Assembly: GCA_024743055.1 (NCBI GenBank)
Contig: JANSXH010000004.1
Coordinates: forward strand, 163,729 to 227,728
Direction: 5' to 3'
DNA: 64,000 bases
Source: Pseudomonadota bacterium
Lineage (GTDB): Bacteria; Pseudomonadota; Alphaproteobacteria; Sneathiellales; Sneathiellaceae
Translations under genes and position numbers: made by a program
Notes under the pieces: generated by a model
Seen by the model: only the letters and a program-made list of their open reading frames with translations
The model's database searches: none
Told to the model about the DNA's origin: nothing
Shown: piece by piece, positions 7,314 to 60,724 of the stretch
How the letters are laid out: each line of letters starts with the position of its first letter
How positions within the stretch are numbered: the stretch's first letter is position 1

Positions 7314-9560
7314 ATGATTGGTTCCGCCTTAAAAAAATCCTTCGCATCCCTGACACGCCCATTGCGGTGGGTATTTTTTGTTGGAAGTGGGCGGTTTTCA
7401 GCCATTCTTTTTTTGATAGCGGCTCTTCTTCTTCAAATATATGACCCTCCTGTATTAGCGAATTTTCGTGACCGTGTTTTCGACTTTTACCAGCAGTCCC
7501 TACCCCGAGTAGCGAATGAGCCGCGCCCAGTTGCCGTCATTGATATTGATGAAAACAGCCTTCTTAATCTTGGGCAATGGCCTTGGCCGAGATCCTATCT
7601 CGCTCAATTGGTCGCAAATGCCATGGAAAAAGGGGCTGTTGTCATTGGGTTCGACATGTTGTTCGCCGAAGCAGATAGACTGTCACCTGATAAGATGTCT
7701 GAGAGCGTGGGGGGACTTTCCGAGGAGGTTAAACAAACCCTTGCACAACTGCCATCCTATGACAGTATTTTCGCTGATGAGATCAACAAGGGCCGGGTGG
7801 TTCTTGGCATTTCGGTCAGCGCAGAAAGCAAAGGCGCCAATAATTATGGGCTGGATCGCATCCCCTCCTTCGCAGCACTTGGCCAGGACCCTAAGCCACA
7901 TTTGAGCAAGTTCCCGTCCCTTATCGGCAATATTGATGAGCTGGACATGGCGGCGGCTGGTCGCGGCATGGTCAGTCTAGATCAGGATTTCGATGGCATT
8001 GTCCGGCGGGTCCCCCTTGCCAATCTAGTTGGGGATAGAATTATTCCTACTCTCGCCCTTGATATGCTGAGGGTTGCGACCGGCCGCAATGTGGTCATTC
8101 AAACCGGCAAGAATGGCATCGATGGTTTTAAAATTGCCGGAACCCTGATCCCGACGGATACCAAAGGACGGATCTGGATAAAATATTCGGAGTTTGATCC
8201 TGATCACTATGTCTCCGCTCTTGAGGTCATAAATGGGACGGTTGCTCCTGAAAAACTGGCCGGCAAGCTTGTACTTGTTGGCACCTCCGCTACGGGTTTG
8301 AAAGACCTGCGGGCATCGCCTCTCACCTCCAACCTGCCTGGGGTCGAGATGCATATGCAGTTGCTGGAAAATATTCTGACCCAGTCTTACATGTTCCGGC
8401 CCGAGTTTATCGCCTTGTTCGAATGGCTTGGGACCTTGCTTACCGGTCTGACCCTGATCGTTCTTGTCCCTCTTGTCGGTGCCCGAACCACACTCGCGCT
8501 GTTGGTGTTCGTTGGGACAGTTGCCGTCACGTCATCCGCTTATTTCTTTGTCGCCCATTCCACCCTGATCGACGTCACCTATACGGTCGTAATATCGACC
8601 CTGATCTATATCATTCTGGTCTATTCGAGTTATCTCTCGACGGAGCAGGAACGTACCCGCATCCGAACGGCTTTTGCTCACTATCTGTCCCCAGATCTGG
8701 TCAACCGTCTCTCTGCCTCTCCGGATAGCTTGGTACTCGGGGGTGAAGAGAAGGAAATGACCTTCATGTTTTGTGATGTCCGGGAATTTACCGTTATATC
8801 AGAGGGCTACAAACATGATCCGCAAGGCTTGACCCATCTCATCAACCGATTCCTGACCCCAATGACCGGAGAAATCCTAGAGCATAACGGCACCATCGAT
8901 AAATATATGGGCGATTCCATCATGGCCTTCTGGAACGCACCTATCGAGAATCCACATCACGCCAAAGATGCGGCGGACGCGGCCCTTAAGATGATCCCGC
9001 AACTGGCAGCCCTCAATGCGGTTCTGGAAGAAGAAGCCATTACGGAGAAACGCAGCTTCAAGCAATTAAGGGTTGGCATCGGCCTCAATACGGGAACCTG
9101 CATTGTTGGGAATCTGGGTTCCGAGCAGCGATTTGACTATTCAGTTTTAGGCGATCCCGTGAATCTCGCCTCTCGCCTTGAAGGGCAAACAAAGGAGTAT
9201 GGATTCAGCATTATCCTCGGAGAGAGCACTGCTGTGGAAGTCCCCGACTATGCCATGATTGAACTCGATCTGATTGCTGTGAAAGGTAAGCAAGATGCCG
9301 TCAAAATCTTCGGTCTGATTGGGGGTGCCGAGCGGGCAAAACAGCCGGACTTCCTTGAAATGCGGGATTTGGTTCATGGCTTTCTGGATCTGTATCTCAG
9401 CAAAAAATGGGTCGATGCACTGGCGAAAATTGATATCATGAAGACCCATGATCGCCATCTGGTCAAGCTCGCTTCTCTCTATGAGGAGCGAATTAGAACC
9501 TTCCAGCAAACACCACCGCCCGAAGATTGGGATGGTGTCTTCCGAGCGGAAACCAAGTAA
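7314..9560 (+). CDS. CHASE2-domain adenylate cyclase
   Basis: This 748-residue membrane protein has an N-terminal helix (about 27-42), an extracytoplasmic CHASE2 sensor domain (about 50-355, including GFDMLFAEADR and VLVGTSATGLKDLR), three membrane helices (about 365-450) and a cytoplasmic class III cyclase (about 478-665). Catalytic signatures are present: FCDVREFT, the substrate-binding Lys in DKYMGDS, DYSVLGDPVNLASRLEG with Asp and Asn/Arg, so ATP is the likely substrate. It is divergent from the FecR/RTX gene, a pairing that suggests it senses a periplasmic or envelope state. Start 7314 has only a weak ribosome-binding site. Confidence 0.9.
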   Translation: MIGSALKKSFASLTRPLRWVFFVGSGRFSAILFLIAALLLQIYDPPVLANFRDRVFDFYQQSLPRVANEPRPVAVIDIDENSLLNLGQWPWPRSYLAQLVANAMEKGAVVIGFDMLFAEADRLSPDKMSESVGGLSEEVKQTLAQLPSYDSIFADEINKGRVVLGISVSAESKGANNYGLDRIPSFAALGQDPKPHLSKFPSLIGNIDELDMAAAGRGMVSLDQDFDGIVRRVPLANLVGDRIIPTLALDMLRVATGRNVVIQTGKNGIDGFKIAGTLIPTDTKGRIWIKYSEFDPDHYVSALEVINGTVAPEKLAGKLVLVGTSATGLKDLRASPLTSNLPGVEMHMQLLENILTQSYMFRPEFIALFEWLGTLLTGLTLIVLVPLVGARTTLALLVFVGTVAVTSSAYFFVAHSTLIDVTYTVVISTLIYIILVYSSYLSTEQERTRIRTAFAHYLSPDLVNRLSASPDSLVLGGEEKEMTFMFCDVREFTVISEGYKHDPQGLTHLINRFLTPMTGEILEHNGTIDKYMGDSIMAFWNAPIENPHHAKDAADAALKMIPQLAALNAVLEEEAITEKRSFKQLRVGIGLNTGTCIVGNLGSEQRFDYSVLGDPVNLASRLEGQTKEYGFSIILGESTAVEVPDYAMIELDLIAVKGKQDAVKIFGLIGGAERAKQPDFLEMRDLVHGFLDLYLSKKWVDALAKIDIMKTHDRHLVKLASLYEERIRTFQQTPPPEDWDGVFRAETK

Positions 9561-9568
9561 CCTTAAAT

Positions 9569-10504
9569 TTAGAAGCTGTTCCCTGCGGACAGGGCGCCAA
9601 GTCGACCTGTAATTTCGTGAAAGCCTTCAACCGTTTCCCGAATGATGTCAGCAACTGCTTTCTGTTCGGTGATTAGCCCGGCCGACTGGCCAGACAGTCC
9701 CACGCTTGCTTCCATATCGCCCCCGAAATACAGGTCCTGGATATGTTTGAAGGTATCCGGCGGCATCAGCCCTTCTTCATGAATGGCGATGGTCCGATTG
9801 GTTTTCAAAGCGCGGATACAAGGTGTTGATTTCTTGTTCAACACATAGGTCCCGGTATCCTCGGCATCGATGATCGCCTGCTTGTAATTTGTATGGACCG
9901 GGCTTTCCTTGGAGGAGACGAAGCGGGTTCCCATCTGTACGGCTTCGGCCCCAACGGCAAAGGCTGCCGCCATTCCGCGACCGTCGACAATACCGCCGGC
10001 TGCGACCATCGGCACATCCACCTTATCGCGGATGGCTTGCAACAGAACCAGGGTTGAGACTTCTTCGGGGTTCTTGAACCCGCCACCTTCGGAGCCCTCC
10101 ACAATCAAGCCGTCAACGCCAGATTCGACCGCTTTCAAAGCGGCTTTGACCGTGGGAACGGCGTGATAGACGATAATGTCATGGGCTTTCAGGATTTCGA
10201 TGAGTTTGGCCGGGTTACCGGCTGACGTAGTGACAAATTTGACACCGCATTCAGCTACAAATTTGACCATATTCTCATCACGCAGGAAAAGCAGTGGCAG
10301 ATTAATGCCAAAAGGCGCATCCGTGAGCTCCTTCATTTTTTCGATCTCGCGGATGCAGTTTTCGGTTTCTCCCGACGAGGTCTCGATAATACCGAGACCG
10401 CCAGCTTTGCAAACCGCAGAGGCCAGTTGCGAGCGGGCGATCCAGCCCATGGGAGCCTGAATGATGGGATATTTCGCGCCTGTATGTTCCAGTACCCGGT
10501 TCAT
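9569..10504 (-). CDS. Nitronate monooxygenase family flavoprotein
   Basis: The 311-residue product is an FMN-dependent TIM-barrel enzyme of the 2-nitropropane dioxygenase family, which oxidises alkyl nitronates such as propionate-3-nitronate to aldehyde and nitrite. Visible features are IIQAPMGWIA at the N-terminus, FGINLPLL, GVDGLIVEGSEGGGF, VPMVAAGGIVDGRGMAAAFAVGAEAVQMGTRF for phosphate binding, and a C-terminal GQSAGLI. I chose the ATG at 10504, preceded by AAGGA, over an upstream in-frame start that would add 21 residues. Members of this family are often over-annotated, so substrate is uncertain. It ends 8 bp from the convergent cyclase. Confidence 0.82.
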   Translation of the reverse strand: MNRVLEHTGAKYPIIQAPMGWIARSQLASAVCKAGGLGIIETSSGETENCIREIEKMKELTDAPFGINLPLLFLRDENMVKFVAECGVKFVTTSAGNPAKLIEILKAHDIIVYHAVPTVKAALKAVESGVDGLIVEGSEGGGFKNPEEVSTLVLLQAIRDKVDVPMVAAGGIVDGRGMAAAFAVGAEAVQMGTRFVSSKESPVHTNYKQAIIDAEDTGTYVLNKKSTPCIRALKTNRTIAIHEEGLMPPDTFKHIQDLYFGGDMEASVGLSGQSAGLITEQKAVADIIRETVEGFHEITGRLGALSAGNSF

Positions 10505-35176: not shown

Positions 35177-37000
35177 ATGGAAATTCGGAACGTCGCGATC
35201 ATCGCCCATGTTGATCATGGGAAGACAACACTTGTGGATGGCCTGCTCAAACAGAGCGGGACGTTCCGCGATAACCAGCAGGTGGCTGAACGAGCCATGG
35301 ACAGTAATGACCTGGAGCGTGAGCGCGGGATTACAATCCTGGCCAAATGTACCTCTGTTGAATGGGAAGGCTATCGCCTGAATATCGTTGATACACCTGG
35401 CCATGCCGATTTTGGCGGTGAGGTGGAGCGCATCCTGAGCATGGTCGATGGTGTCGTGGTTCTTGTGGATGCCGCTGAAGGCCCAATGCCGCAGACCAAG
35501 TTCGTCACCCAAAAGGCCCTTGGTTTGGGTCTCAAACCGATTGTTGTGATCAATAAGGCAGACCGTCCTGATGGGCGCCCTGAAGAAGTTCTCGACGAAT
35601 GTTTCGATTTGCTTGTTGCCCTTGACGCAGATGAAGATCAGCTCGACTTTCCCGTATTATATGCCTCCGCTAAAGAAGGCTGGGCCGTTACCGATCTGTC
35701 CGAACCGAAGGAAAATCTGCATCCGCTTTTTGATTTGATTGTTCAACATGTTGCTGCTCCAAATGTAGATGAAGACGCACCGTTCCGCATGCTGGTAACT
35801 ACTATTGAAAGCAACCCGTATCTCGGGCGCCTTTTGACCGGACGTGTCGAAAGTGGCGTCTTGAAAACCAACGAGCCGGTTAAGGGCCTTCGCCGTGAAG
35901 GCGGTAAGGTCGAGGATGCCCGCGCCAACAAGATCATGGCGTTCCGTGGCCTTGAGCGAGAAACCATTTCCGAAGCCCGGGCTGGAGACATCGTTTCCAT
36001 TGCCGGCCTTGTCAAAACGACAGTCGCAGACACCATTGGCACGCCTGACGAGACTGAAGCAATTGATGCTCAGCCCATTGATCCGCCAACCATCTCCATG
36101 ACTTTCGCTATCAATTCCTCACCACTTGCCGGACGGGATGGTGATAAAGTCCAAAGCCGTGTGATCCGGGATCGCCTGATGAAGGAAATCGAAGGCAATG
36201 TTTCGATCCGTGTTGAGGATAGTGAAGACGCTGATTCCTACATCGTCTCCGGCCGCGGCGAATTGCAGCTTGGCGTTCTGATTGAAACTATGCGCCGGGA
36301 AGGCTTTGAGCTTTCCATAAGCCGTCCGCGAGTCCTGTTCCGTGAAGACGAAACGACGGGTGCAACACTAGAACCTCGAGAAGAAGTTGTTGTCGATGTG
36401 GATGACGAATTTTCCGGCGTTGTCGTCGAGAAAATTGCTTTGCGCAAGGGAACTATGACCGATATGCGGCCTTCCGGGGGTGGCAAGACGCGGATTACCT
36501 TCCTCTGCCCGACCCGTGGTCTGATTGGATATCATGGAGAATTCCTGACCGACACCCGCGGTACCGGTATCATGAACCGCCTGTTTGATTCCTATGTCCC
36601 GCATAAGGGTGAGATCCCAGGTCGGCGCAATGGTGTTTTGATTGCCAACTCAACGGGTAAGTCCGTCGCTTTTGCCATCTGGAACCTGGAAGCTCGTGGC
36701 TTCTTCTTTATTGGTAGTGGCGTGGATGTCTATGAGGGCATGATCCTCGGTGAACATAACCGCCCCAATGATCTTGAAGTCAACGCCCTTAAAGCTAAAC
36801 AGCTTACCAACATTCGCGCCTCCGGAACCGATGAGGCGGTCCGCCTGACGACACCGCGCAAAATGACGTTGGAGCAAGCCATCGCCTATATCGATGATGA
36901 TGAGCTGGTCGAAGTCACGCCAAATTTCATTCGCCTTCGCAAGCGTCATTTGGATCCCCATGAGAGAAAGAAAGCCTCTCGGACAAAGATCGCAAGCTAA
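35177..37000 (+). CDS. typA: TypA/BipA ribosome-associated GTPase
   Basis: The 607-residue translational GTPase has G1 [17 protein letters not shown], the switch I ERERGITI motif, G3 [14 protein letters not shown] and G4 NKADRP, then EF-G-like domains II, III and V and the family-specific C-terminal domain ending [12 protein letters not shown]. It binds the ribosome and supports 50S assembly and translation at low temperature or stress. Length matches the family. It is monocistronic on its strand, with a probable promoter about 40-65 bp ahead. Confidence 0.96.
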
Positions 37001-37139
37001 GGCCTTCTGCCAGAACCCGCTTTATCCTTGCAAAGTCTTTTTTGAGGAAAAAAGCTAGCGCCCGCCTGCGTCTTATGGAAACATAGCGGCAATGGCGGGG
37101 CATGCGCCCTCTAGAACAATAAAAACAAGTGAGGACTAA

Positions 37140-37361
37140 ATGGCGTTAGTAGATGTAGTTTCGGAAATCACCGGCAAAGTCTGGAAAATCGAAGCCGAAA
37201 TCGGCGAGGAACTCGAAGAAGATGATCCGGTGGTTATTCTGGAAAGCATGAAGATGGAAATCCCTGTCATGGCTCCGGAAGATGGCAAGCTGACTGAAAT
37301 CCTGGTTGGCGAAGGCGATGCGGTTGCCGAAGATCAGGTCATCGCCCGCATGGAAGTCTGA
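37140..37361 (+). CDS. Stand-alone biotin carboxyl carrier protein
   Basis: The 73-residue protein is a single biotinyl/lipoyl domain with the biotinylation motif ESMKMEIPV (Lys near residue 38) between two beta strands, and the conserved end VAEDQVIARMEV. It should carry carboxybiotin for an acyl-CoA or other carboxylase; no biotin carboxylase or carboxyltransferase gene is close by, so its partner is encoded elsewhere. Small isolated BCCPs of this type occur in several proteobacteria. A GAGGA site precedes the ATG. Confidence 0.88.
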   Translation: MALVDVVSEITGKVWKIEAEIGEELEEDDPVVILESMKMEIPVMAPEDGKLTEILVGEGDAVAEDQVIARMEV

Positions 37362-37367
37362 CCTTTA

Positions 37368-37742
37368 CTACCAAAGCCAGGTAGTCGGATTGGGAACCGG
37401 TTGTTCGCGGGTCAGGAATTTAAGACCTTTGGCGCAGCGGATGATTAGCCAGACGGCAGCGCCCAGAATGATGATAAAGCCAATTCCTGCAAAGAGAGAA
37501 ATTCCTCCGATCACAAGATAAAGAGTGAACATCCAGAACGTGCGGATCTGATATTGGAAATGCGTCTCAATCCATTCGGCATTTTCATAGCGGTTCATAT
37601 AGGCCATGACGGCGCCGACGAAATGGGCGATCTGAATGACCAGGGTGGCGAGATATAGGAAATAGATAATCTGCGCCATTTTGGCGGCACCCTTTTCCTT
37701 GGCAATATCCTCCGCTGACGGATTTTCTGTAATATCGTTCAT
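37368..37742 (-). CDS. DUF4870-like small membrane protein
   Basis: The 124-residue protein has an acidic N-terminus and three hydrophobic helices (about 25-50, 68-90, 91-108), with WIETHFQYQIRTFW between the first and second and a C-terminal NPTTWLW. This matches small DUF4870-like inner-membrane proteins with conserved H(F/Y).(F/Y)Q.R. No function is known. It converges on the BCCP gene with a 6-bp gap. Confidence 0.72.
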   Translation of the reverse strand: MNDITENPSAEDIAKEKGAAKMAQIIYFLYLATLVIQIAHFVGAVMAYMNRYENAEWIETHFQYQIRTFWMFTLYLVIGGISLFAGIGFIIILGAAVWLIIRCAKGLKFLTREQPVPNPTTWLW

Positions 37743-37888
37743 TCATTTACCCCTGATCAGGATCAACATGCATAGACAAGTATATGTATAGATTTCCGCC
37801 GAACGAAGCGAAAATATTTATATAGGCCCGTCTCGCCTTCACGGCGATACTTGTCTAGTATCTGCTGAAATTTTCTGGGTGTTAAAGT

Positions 37889-57888: not shown

Positions 57889-58764
57889 ATGTTGAATCGC
57901 GTTCTCGTAATTCATAACCCGGTCGCCGGGCGCCGCACGAAAAAACGGCTCGATCAGTTTTTGACACTTCTTCATCAAAGCGAATTTGAAGTCCGGGTTT
58001 GGGAAACGACTGCAAGCGGAGATGCCCGTGTGCAAGCCGCCAATTCTTCCGACATCGATATCATAATTGCCGCAGGGGGCGACGGCACCGTAAATGAGGT
58101 CTTGAACGGAGTTTATGAGCGTGAAACCGATCAGCCATTGCCGGCGCTCGGCTTCTTACCGCTTGGCACCGCAAATGTGCTGGCTTTAGAATTGGGACTG
58201 CCTAGTGATCCACAGCAGTTATTTGAGCTTTTGCAAGCGGGTCGCACGTATGACATACGTCCTGGTATTGCCAACGGCAGGCGATTTCTTCTCATGGCCA
58301 GTGTTGGTGTGGATGCCCGTGCTGTCGCCGCTGTCACACCGCCGCTCAAACGAAAATTCGGTGCCTTTGCTTATATTATTGGTGCGATCCAATCCATGGG
58401 ATCCGGTGCACCGACCTTTCACGTTACGATAAACGGCGAGGAACTAACGGCCAAAACGATCATCCTGACCAGATCACAGAAATATGGCGGCCCCTTTACC
58501 CTGGCCGAGGATGCCGGATTGAAAACCCAGATCATGCAAGCCGTTTTGTTCAGGTCTTCCGGCTACATCGCTGCAATTAGATATGGCATCGGGCTCGCTC
58601 TTGGGCGGCTCAAGCATCACAAGGACATTGTTTTCCTAAATGTCGATGAGGTAGAGGTAACGTGTGAAGTCCCGGATCCTGTCCAGATAGACGGAGATGT
58701 TGCCAGCCAGCTCCCTCTAAAAGTTTCTATCGATGTCCAGCCGATCCGGTTTCTGGCGCCCTAG
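57889..58764 (+). CDS. Diacylglycerol kinase family lipid kinase
   Basis: The 291-residue protein has the DAGK catalytic domain: VIHNPVAGRRTKKRLDQF, GGDGTVNEVLNGVY, LGFLPLGTANVLALELGLP, and a C-terminal VQIDGDVA-like metal site. It phosphorylates diacylglycerol or a related lipid to phosphatidic acid, or acts as a bacterial sphingosine-type kinase. ATG 57889 follows AGGGG. It is divergent from plcP across about 157 bp. Its TAG stop lies inside the left CTAG of the 58765-59866 mobile element, so the insertion sits exactly at its 3' end. Confidence 0.88.
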   Translation: MLNRVLVIHNPVAGRRTKKRLDQFLTLLHQSEFEVRVWETTASGDARVQAANSSDIDIIIAAGGDGTVNEVLNGVYERETDQPLPALGFLPLGTANVLALELGLPSDPQQLFELLQAGRTYDIRPGIANGRRFLLMASVGVDARAVAAVTPPLKRKFGAFAYIIGAIQSMGSGAPTFHVTINGEELTAKTIILTRSQKYGGPFTLAEDAGLKTQIMQAVLFRSSGYIAAIRYGIGLALGRLKHHKDIVFLNVDEVEVTCEVPDPVQIDGDVASQLPLKVSIDVQPIRFLAP

Positions 58765-58773
58765 GGTCAGGAC
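58760..58773. repeat. Left terminal inverted repeat with CTAG duplication
   Basis: CCTAGGGTCAGGAC is the exact reverse complement of 59858-59871. Bases 58761-58764 are CTAG, the probable target-site duplication, and the element proper starts at GGTCAGGAC (58765). Inward, about 18 further bases match the other end at 13 positions after a 3-base gap. Confidence 0.85.
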
Positions 58774-59866
58774 CCGTCAATCCGGAAGGGGACGTTGACT
58801 GGTTTGAGCTGTGATTAATCGAGTTTAAGTTCCTGCAGGTAAGCCTATTTAACCCCTGTCACGACATTGACCGCATCGGGATAGATAAGTTGATTGCCAA
58901 CGATGTGACAATTTAGTGTTTGGGCAACATCGCTTATGAGTGCTTCTTTTTTGTTATCAGGAAGGCTATGAAAAGCGTTTGCTATTGGCATCGATCCAAG
59001 ATGCAGCGGGACAAACTCAGCGGCTAAGGGAACTTCAATTGACAACTCTTGGCGTACAACTTCCGTATTTCGGAAACCAGCTTTGGAAACCTGAGCCAGC
59101 AGCGTTTCTGGTGACGGTGTTTCGCGTTGACTGCGCTGTTTCATTGCTATCTCTGGTGAAATGAATTTTTCAACGGCTGCGCATATTGCTTTGGTATATG
59201 CGCTATGTCCGTCCCATATGGACATAACTATACGTCCGTTAGGCGCGAGTATACGGTAAAACTCTTTTAAAGCAGCATGTTGATCAGGAAAATAATGGTA
59301 TCCGTGCTGAGAAATGATGGCATCGAAATCATCAGACGGTAATTCAGTTCCTACAACATCGCTTTCCACCCACGTAATGTCCATGTCTGGGGCTAACTCG
59401 CGCGCCTTCATGAGCATACTTGCGTTGATATCTAGCCCGGTAACACTTCCATTCGCACCCACATCTCGCTTGGCAAGCCGAGTAGTGACACCGGTACCAC
59501 AGGCAACGTCTAGGACCCTTTCACCTGCATCAAGTGAGGCGATTGTCATTAACGCCTTGGCCCAACGTCCAAACCAGAGCGGCACCATGGTATTTTCATA
59601 AATATCTGGTGCGCTACCTGATAATTGAAATGACATTAAACATCCTCCCTGCCCGAGCAATTCCCAAACGCACTGTACGCCTGGACGGTATTGCCCGCAA
59701 CATTAGGTGGATGGGACGGTGAAGGTCAATTGGGTCTCGAACTCGGTCATTGGAAATTTCATTGAAGCAGTTTTACCGCAAGATGTGAAACAAGTGGATT
59801 GGAGAAACTAATCCAAAACCATATGCAAACACCGTCATCTTCTGGATCAATCAATAAGTCCTGACC
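58765..59866. mobile_element. Mobile insertion cassette (MIC-like) carrying a methyltransferase
   Basis: An element of about 1102 bp is bounded by inverted ends GGTCAGGAC / GTCCTGACC and flanked by direct CTAG repeats (58761-58764, 59867-59870). It holds one gene, a SAM methyltransferase on the minus strand, and no transposase. Removing the element and one CTAG joins the DAG kinase and LysR genes so that both stop codons share one CTAG, the expected ancestral state. CTAG fits the YTAR target of IS5-group elements, but the transposase family is inferred. Such cargo-only units are known as mobile insertion cassettes and would need a transposase supplied elsewhere. Confidence 0.8.
58845..59636 (-). 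CDS. Class I SAM-dependent methyltransferase (mobile cassette cargo)
   Basis: The 263-residue cytosolic protein has a class I methyltransferase core: motif I RVLDVACGTGVTTRLAK, acidic SAM-ribose Asp in VTGLDINASML, motif II-like PSDDFDAIISQHGYHYFPD and motif III RILAPNGRIVMSIWDG. It resembles UbiE/Coq5-like small-molecule methyltransferases, but the substrate is unknown. I chose the ATG at 59636, eight bases after GGAGG. It is the only gene in the cassette. A weak TTGACC-N18-TAATGT promoter lies upstream at 59700-59729 on its strand. By eye it looks somewhat more AT-rich than its neighbours; this was not computed. Confidence 0.85.
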   Translation of the reverse strand: MSFQLSGSAPDIYENTMVPLWFGRWAKALMTIASLDAGERVLDVACGTGVTTRLAKRDVGANGSVTGLDINASMLMKARELAPDMDITWVESDVVGTELPSDDFDAIISQHGYHYFPDQHAALKEFYRILAPNGRIVMSIWDGHSAYTKAICAAVEKFISPEIAMKQRSQRETPSPETLLAQVSKAGFRNTEVVRQELSIEVPLAAEFVPLHLGSMPIANAFHSLPDNKKEALISDVAQTLNCHIVGNQLIYPDAVNVVTGVK

Positions 59867-59871
59867 CTAGG
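59858..59871. repeat. Right terminal inverted repeat with CTAG duplication
   Basis: GTCCTGACCCTAGG mirrors the left repeat at 58760-58773 perfectly. CTAG at 59867-59870 is the second copy of the target duplication and also supplies the LysR stop codon on the minus strand. Confidence 0.85.
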
Positions 59872-60724
59872 CCTCACCTGATAAAATATTTGAAAGGGCG
59901 GTCACATTTGGTGATTTGAATCCCTTGCGCCAAATAAGCAATGTCCTGAGGACGGCTTCTTCTTCTGGCAAAACATGGCATTTGAGGCGTTTTGCTTCGG
60001 GAAAAGTATCTAGGACGCTTTTCGGCAGTAGCGCAGCTCCCATTCCTGCGATCACACAGCCTAGCATAGCGTGATAGGAACCAAGCTCGATGGTTCGTTC
60101 CGGTAGTTCGTTGCGCTCTGTATACCAAGCTTCCAGGCGGCGTCGATGGGGACAGCCCTGCTCAAACACAATCATGGTTTTAGGAACGCCTTGTGGTCCG
60201 AAAATGGTCGGATAGCTCTCGGCTGTGACGATAACAGTTTCCTCCTCAAACGCGATCCTGTTTTCAACGCGCGCATCTGAAATAGGCTCTGCAACTAATG
60301 CCGCATCAATTTCCCCGTCCAACAGGGCCTTCAGAAGCTGCGTCGGATTACCTGTTTGGAGTTCGAGTTTGACATCAGGAAAGTTCTTGCTGAATTCAGC
60401 GAGAGGTGCTGGCAACCGCACGGCGGCTGTGCTTTCCATGGATCCCAGCCGAAACATGCCTCTTGGATGGCTATCCTGGATGGCATTGAGTGCCTCTTCA
60501 GAGAGTGCCAGCAGTTGGTCGGCATAGGTAAGGAGCAACTTGCCGGTGGGGGACAAATGCAGGCGTTTGCCTTCGCGCACAAACAGGTCGACACCAAGCT
60601 CTTCTTCTAGTTGACGAATACGGGTGGTCACGTTGGACTGAACCCGATGTAGGCTTTCAGCAGCCCGGGTAATACCGCCTTCACGGACGACGGCTTTAAA
60701 TATTCTAAGGTCAGAGAGTTCCAT
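59867..60724 (-). CDS. LysR-family transcriptional regulator
   Basis: The 285-residue regulator has an N-terminal winged HTH (about 1-60, LRIFKAVVREGGITRAAESL then HRVQSNVTTRIRQLEEELG) and a LysR substrate-binding domain with a DIKVDLEL-like FPDVKLELQTGNPTQLLKAL segment and GEIDAALVAEP. It reads divergently from the DUF1330 gene, the standard arrangement for LysR control of its neighbour. Its TAG stop lies within the right CTAG of the mobile element, so its coding sequence was kept intact by the insertion. The inducer is unknown. Confidence 0.92.
   Translation of the reverse strand: MELSDLRIFKAVVREGGITRAAESLHRVQSNVTTRIRQLEEELGVDLFVREGKRLHLSPTGKLLLTYADQLLALSEEALNAIQDSHPRGMFRLGSMESTAAVRLPAPLAEFSKNFPDVKLELQTGNPTQLLKALLDGEIDAALVAEPISDARVENRIAFEEETVIVTAESYPTIFGPQGVPKTMIVFEQGCPHRRRLEAWYTERNELPERTIELGSYHAMLGCVIAGMGAALLPKSVLDTFPEAKRLKCHVLPEEEAVLRTLLIWRKGFKSPNVTALSNILSGEA

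Follow-up and report, generated by a model that had tools for sequence, protein, structure and literature searches.

The element at positions 58764 to 59867 of the window (the whole 64,000-nucleotide stretch of DNA analyzed in this study) is probably a non-autonomous, cargo-bearing mobile insertion cassette (MIC) that originated from an IS5-family element fitting the IS427 subgroup. The element is 1104 bp long, and its limits were set on the basis of IS-type ends, a putative TA target duplication, and a single cargo gene. The ends and a transposase remnant demonstrate its derivation from a parent IS.

The preliminary description of this DNA had reported two perfect 14-bp inverted repeats with CTAG at both ends, and both observations were confirmed. 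The window contains two copies of CCTAGGGTCAGGAC and no more, in inverted orientation, at 58760 to 58773 on the plus strand and at 59858 to 59871 on the minus strand, and these two repeats bracket the unit. The inverted repeat proper is the 10-bp GGGTCAGGAC, located at 58764 to 58773 on the left and at 59867 to 59858 on the right; 14 bp are reached once target bases are counted, the outer CC and TA being part of the palindromic target CCTAGG. With repeats of 10 bp, or 14 bp including the target, the 30-bp ends of the preliminary description were not borne out.

Of the 41 bp of the right end (59829 to 59869, minus strand), 35 to 37 are shared with the corresponding ends of IS5-family elements in Sphingobium, Sneathiella, and another alphaproteobacterium. 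A blastn comparison of the element with 72,556 plasmids yielded four matches in Sphingomonas, Sphingobium, and Mesorhizobium, all of them to its last 39 bp (95% identity, E 1e-6), and two of the four sites are annotated as an IS5-family or DDE transposase. A multicopy IS of the Sneathiella relative G021, a member of the same genus, has this right end as well (90% over 41 bp, E 5e-9). Comparison with the right ends of IS copies further revealed the last 10 codons and the stop of an IS5-family transposase gene at 59825 to 59857 (plus strand), where ...ANTVIFWINQ* in the window is the counterpart, in frame with the stop, of ...AATVIFWLNQ* in the IS. Because the right-end stretch encodes this peptide, the coding end of the parent transposase is still present, and this fossil supports the derivation of the cassette from an IS. 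The earlier statement that neither a transposase nor a remnant is recognizable was thus accurate for the gene, which is absent from the interior, but not for the remnant. The ends match those of an autonomous IS, clearly so on the right; on the left, the match to kin comprises the inverted repeat plus about ten more bases only, the first 20 or so nucleotides resembling MITE ends of relatives, and this short backing of about 20 bp counts against the MIC reading.

It had been proposed that the ends be sought elsewhere with a transposase between them, and full IS copies with the same ends were found in other alphaproteobacteria, with fragments in the same genus. The 13-bp end was present in 22 of the 385 alphaproteobacterial genomes sampled, and these occurrences included full IS copies of 842 to 849 bp and MITEs of 190 to 305 bp. 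The complete IS of Sphingobium (locus L058; approximately 848 bp) starts with TAGGGTCAGGACC, carries the inverted TAGGGTCAGGACTC at its end, and contains a transposase annotated as two ORFs; full copies of 842 to 849 bp with TAG[G/C]GTC[A/G]GGAC ends were identified at L058, L199, and L222. The transposase of the Sphingomonas copy matches PF13340 and PF01609. The IS427 subgroup of IS5, as described in Paracoccus (ISPaes1, IS1248, and ISPam4), comprises elements of 832 to 865 bp with inverted repeats of 13 to 21 bp and mostly a 2-bp duplication (PMC3281130). The length of the 842- to 849-bp copies, their short inverted repeats, their 2-bp duplication, and their IS4/IS5-type DDE transposase, which in this group is often encoded by two overlapping ORFs, place the parent element in the IS5 family, and judged from these sequence features it fits the IS427 subgroup. 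Like that subgroup, the kin of the window ends are alphaproteobacterial, and their target is TA; the window element differs in carrying a cargo gene and no longer having a transposase.

The insertion point lies within a CTAG at which the TAG stops of two convergent genes overlap tail to tail. The left flank is an intact, full-length YegS-type lipid (diacylglycerol) kinase gene (57889 to 58764, plus strand), and the right flank is an intact, full-length gene for a PtrR-like LysR regulator (59867 to 60724, minus strand). In the left CTAG (58761 to 58764), TA at 58762 to 58763 is one target copy and TAG at 58762 to 58764 is the kinase stop; in the right CTAG (59867 to 59870), TA at 59868 to 59869 is the second target copy and TAG at 59869 to 59867 on the minus strand is the LysR stop. 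Since the element starts with G and finishes with C, both stops are regenerated and neither gene is broken. Joining the flanks (GCGCC-CTAG-GCCTC) gives a putative empty site, GCGCCCTAGGCC, that encodes two proteins of 291 and 285 residues, identical to those of the occupied site, and insertion into the shared stop-codon overlap is harmless to both neighbors. At another locus, L222, the CTAG of such an end likewise marks the exact terminus of an upstream gene.

Related insertions are flanked by TA but not always by CTAG (for example, CTAG/CTAA or GTAG/CTAA at L007 and L101), and we therefore took TA as the duplicated target and 58764 to 59867 as the element. The length of 1102 bp given earlier would apply if the whole CTAG were the duplicated target, whereas the TA target of the relatives yields 1104 bp. 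The duplication is weak evidence, because it measures only 2 bp and CTAG is palindromic. The locus was also compared with 18 relatives carrying the kinase gene. The order glycosyltransferase, LpxH, kinase is widely kept among them, and at least 15 retain the upstream neighbors of the kinase gene; in none of the 18 does a LysR gene adjoin the kinase gene. Presence of the same methyltransferase at this locus in all relatives had been named among the observations that together would speak against a mobile unit; no methyltransferase of this kind stands beside the kinase gene in any of the 18.

As the preliminary description had stated, the interior holds only one sizeable gene, and the Pfam assignments (PF13649/PF08241) and the ORF list agree that it encodes a class I SAM-dependent methyltransferase. 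The gene (58845 to 59636, minus strand) specifies a putative small-molecule methyltransferase of 263 amino acids, whose structural model has a pLDDT of 92. The listed ORF starts at a TTG at 59660; we favor the ATG at 59636, because homologues align from that methionine and a Shine-Dalgarno-like GGGAGG (59644 to 59649, minus strand) precedes it. Blastn homology to other genomes begins approximately at this motif and ends just past the stop codon. The closest homologues (75 to 81% identical) are from Rhodobacterales (Yoonia, Octadecabacter, and Vannielia) and MAGs, compared with an identity of 62 to 63% to the methyltransferases of other Sneathiella. The tree groups the protein with Rhodobacterales sequences in a clade (11 rows, support 100/99) that contains no other Sneathiella. 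The GC3 of the gene is 0.40 versus 0.51 to 0.62 in its neighbors, and comparison with the nearest homologue (L153) gave a dN/dS of approximately 0.09, with a high dS. On the basis of the identities, the tree, GC3, and dN/dS, we regard the gene as foreign and under selection, and its composition and phylogeny make it look horizontally acquired. The nearest matches of the predicted structure are the fungal S-methyltransferases GtmA and TmtA, followed by JHAMT and trans-aconitate methyltransferase, all at approximately 20% identity; this modeled resemblance points to a small-molecule function, and the names GtmA and TmtA serve as a lead only. A DNA methyltransferase was ruled out by the fold, which is of the small-molecule kind. 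A defense role was likewise rejected, as the PADLOC match to mad2 does not extend beyond the methyltransferase domain, and so was a phage link, as viral contigs gave only distant gene relatives (at most 34% identity) and lacked the right end. A simple scan of the element matched no promoter, a point against the MIC reading, and no terminator. In another Sneathiella (G013), a homologue at L029 1501 to 2286 has an internal TAA stop and is probably a pseudogene.

In Rhodobacterales and Sneathiella, homologues of the gene form sharply bounded single-gene blocks of 0.9 to 1.04 kb in unrelated neighborhoods and without these ends (L155/L156/L157, L169/L170, and L163/L166/L028; DNA identity 84 to 96%). 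GAGCCCATTTTGAC is present at some of the block edges, and the search for inverted repeats flanking the blocks gave none. Elsewhere the gene also travels alone, and this counts against the MIC reading, since an IS present here beforehand may have received it. An IS427-type IS or a MITE would then have occupied the CTAG first, the methyltransferase gene would have landed inside it later, and the rest of the IS would have been lost, so that the unit never moved as a cassette. This course of events is the chief alternative to the MIC reading, and we consider it unlikely. The solo blocks are compatible with it, as is the presence of a single copy in the only genome having the element, a point that also weakens the MIC reading; however, it requires an insertion and a deletion that spared both ends, no trace of the boundary of another mover is visible, and the DNA shared with other genomes runs from the ribosome-binding site to the stop only. 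Rather doubtful, too, is the reading that the methyltransferase gene is a habitual solo traveler that uses several unrelated movers and here boarded an IS5-family end pair; if true, it would mean that the gene is kept mobile by selection and is not cargo caught once.

Could the unit be an ordinary methyltransferase gene between two chance repeats? We counted three inverted repeats in the window that are perfect over at least 14 bp and spaced 200 to 3000 bp apart; 40 random sequences generated under a first-order model had 0.9 on average and 4 at most. The repeat pair alone therefore proves nothing, since a perfect 14-bp pair is not above chance in 64 kb. Coincidence is nevertheless highly improbable: the right end matches IS ends and the C-terminus of their transposase over approximately 40 bp, and with that end taken as an IS end, the probability of an exact inverted partner within 3 kb is about 1e-5. 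We judged the element to be real because its right end corresponds to the 3' terminus of IS5-family elements. The two other perfect repeat pairs of at least 14 bp in the window lie at 7846 to 10450 and 35890 to 37847; approximately one such pair is expected by chance. Least credible of all is an autonomous system with an unrecognized small transposase inside the cassette, for although approximately 170 bp upstream of the methyltransferase gene are of untraced origin, the element otherwise contains only shadow ORFs of at most 95 amino acids, and the IS5-family transposase used with these ends has about 250.

Under the MIC reading, the parent IS would have kept its terminal 10-bp repeats and its last 40 or so bp, and the foreign methyltransferase gene, which brings its own ribosome-binding site, would have taken the place of the body of its transposase gene. 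The transposase of an IS that has matching ends would act in trans on the GGGTCAGGAC ends and join the unit to a TA target, here the TA in the CTAG at the overlapping stops, both of which would be recreated. The unit would then have arrived whole, and it might still be mobilizable. We infer its movement as a unit, because no cognate transposase, second copy, or testable empty site was found; the earlier designation of a cargo-only mobile cassette thus holds for a cargo-only unit bounded by IS ends around a gene that looks acquired, with mobility as its inferred part. No second copy was found in the genome itself, in plasmids, or in a scan of genome contigs, and no other genome or plasmid searched carries the same ends around the methyltransferase gene. 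The search for a transposase of this IS5-type group in the host genome (86% complete) gave none, and the cassette is therefore probably stranded for now, unless the IS is located in the portion of the genome not covered or re-enters.

MICs are defined in PMC3913671 as units with inverted repeats, no transposase, cargo, and a short target duplication. The anatomy of the window element fits this definition, with the TA at either side as the putative duplication: inside it and near it no transposase gene occurs, the only coding content being the methyltransferase ORF and the 10-codon remnant. A composite transposon would have two IS copies flanking the cargo, whereas only ends are present here. 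As summarized there with reference to Chen 1999 and De Palmenaer 2004, MIC231 of Bacillus cereus is an IS231/IS4-family MIC mobilizable in trans by the IS transposase. MIC231 resembles the window element in that IS ends surround a passenger gene replacing the transposase; it differs in combining IS4-family ends with a D-stereospecific endopeptidase gene, compared with IS5-family ends and a methyltransferase gene here, and in that its mobilization in trans has been reported, whereas that of the window element is a prediction. Mic-qnrD of Proteeae plasmids, according to the same source, likewise has cargo between inverted repeats and no transposase, and its 2-bp target duplication parallels the putative one here, but its repeats are imperfect and 24 bp long, its cargo is a plasmid-borne resistance gene, and its parent IS is left unnamed in that description. 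Passenger genes are also moved by means of IS ends in transposable modules, which consist of one IS and adjacent DNA, and in transporter IS, with the difference that both keep the transposase (PMC3281130, PMC9330008). MICs, MITEs, and solo inverted repeats are described as absent from most genome annotations (PMC3129680). Lacking a transposase, MICs escape annotation too often. The literature searched, a scope outside which most subscription papers lie, contained no IS5-family MIC with a methyltransferase gene; as far as it shows, an IS5-family, IS427-like MIC with ordinary metabolic cargo in an alphaproteobacterium is new.

The same ends also delimit smaller units. MITEs of 190 to 305 bp occur in Sneathiella and other alphaproteobacteria; within the genus Sneathiella, G021 has the ends as IS (broken or fragmentary where contigs stop), G013, G021, and G011 have them as MITEs of about 270 bp, and very short palindromes with them also occur. 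A MITE origin of the non-coding DNA of the cassette was rejected, as no similarity extends beyond the ends. Among the 385 alphaproteobacterial genomes sampled and the Sneathiella relatives, we found no further unit that combined both ends with cargo only. The micro-palindromes are little more than two IS ends: a 16-bp TA-GGGTCAGGACCC-TA occurs in G011, G014, G021, and G023 (for example, L091 3304 to 3319 and L107 1395 to 1410), the pattern TAGGGTCNNGACCCTA occurs eight times in G011 versus zero in a reversed control, and a 35-bp near-perfect palindrome formed from IS ends occurs at L190 3947 to 3981 and also at L191 and L193. They resemble minimal non-autonomous derivatives of this group of IS, or else its footprints. 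At L222 (3909 to 5836), an IS end is followed by genes for a MarR-like regulator and a VOC/glyoxalase-like protein, named from their translations and not from a family search, and then by a complete IS5-type IS, the outer end being extra; this unit resembles a transposable module built with the same end family.
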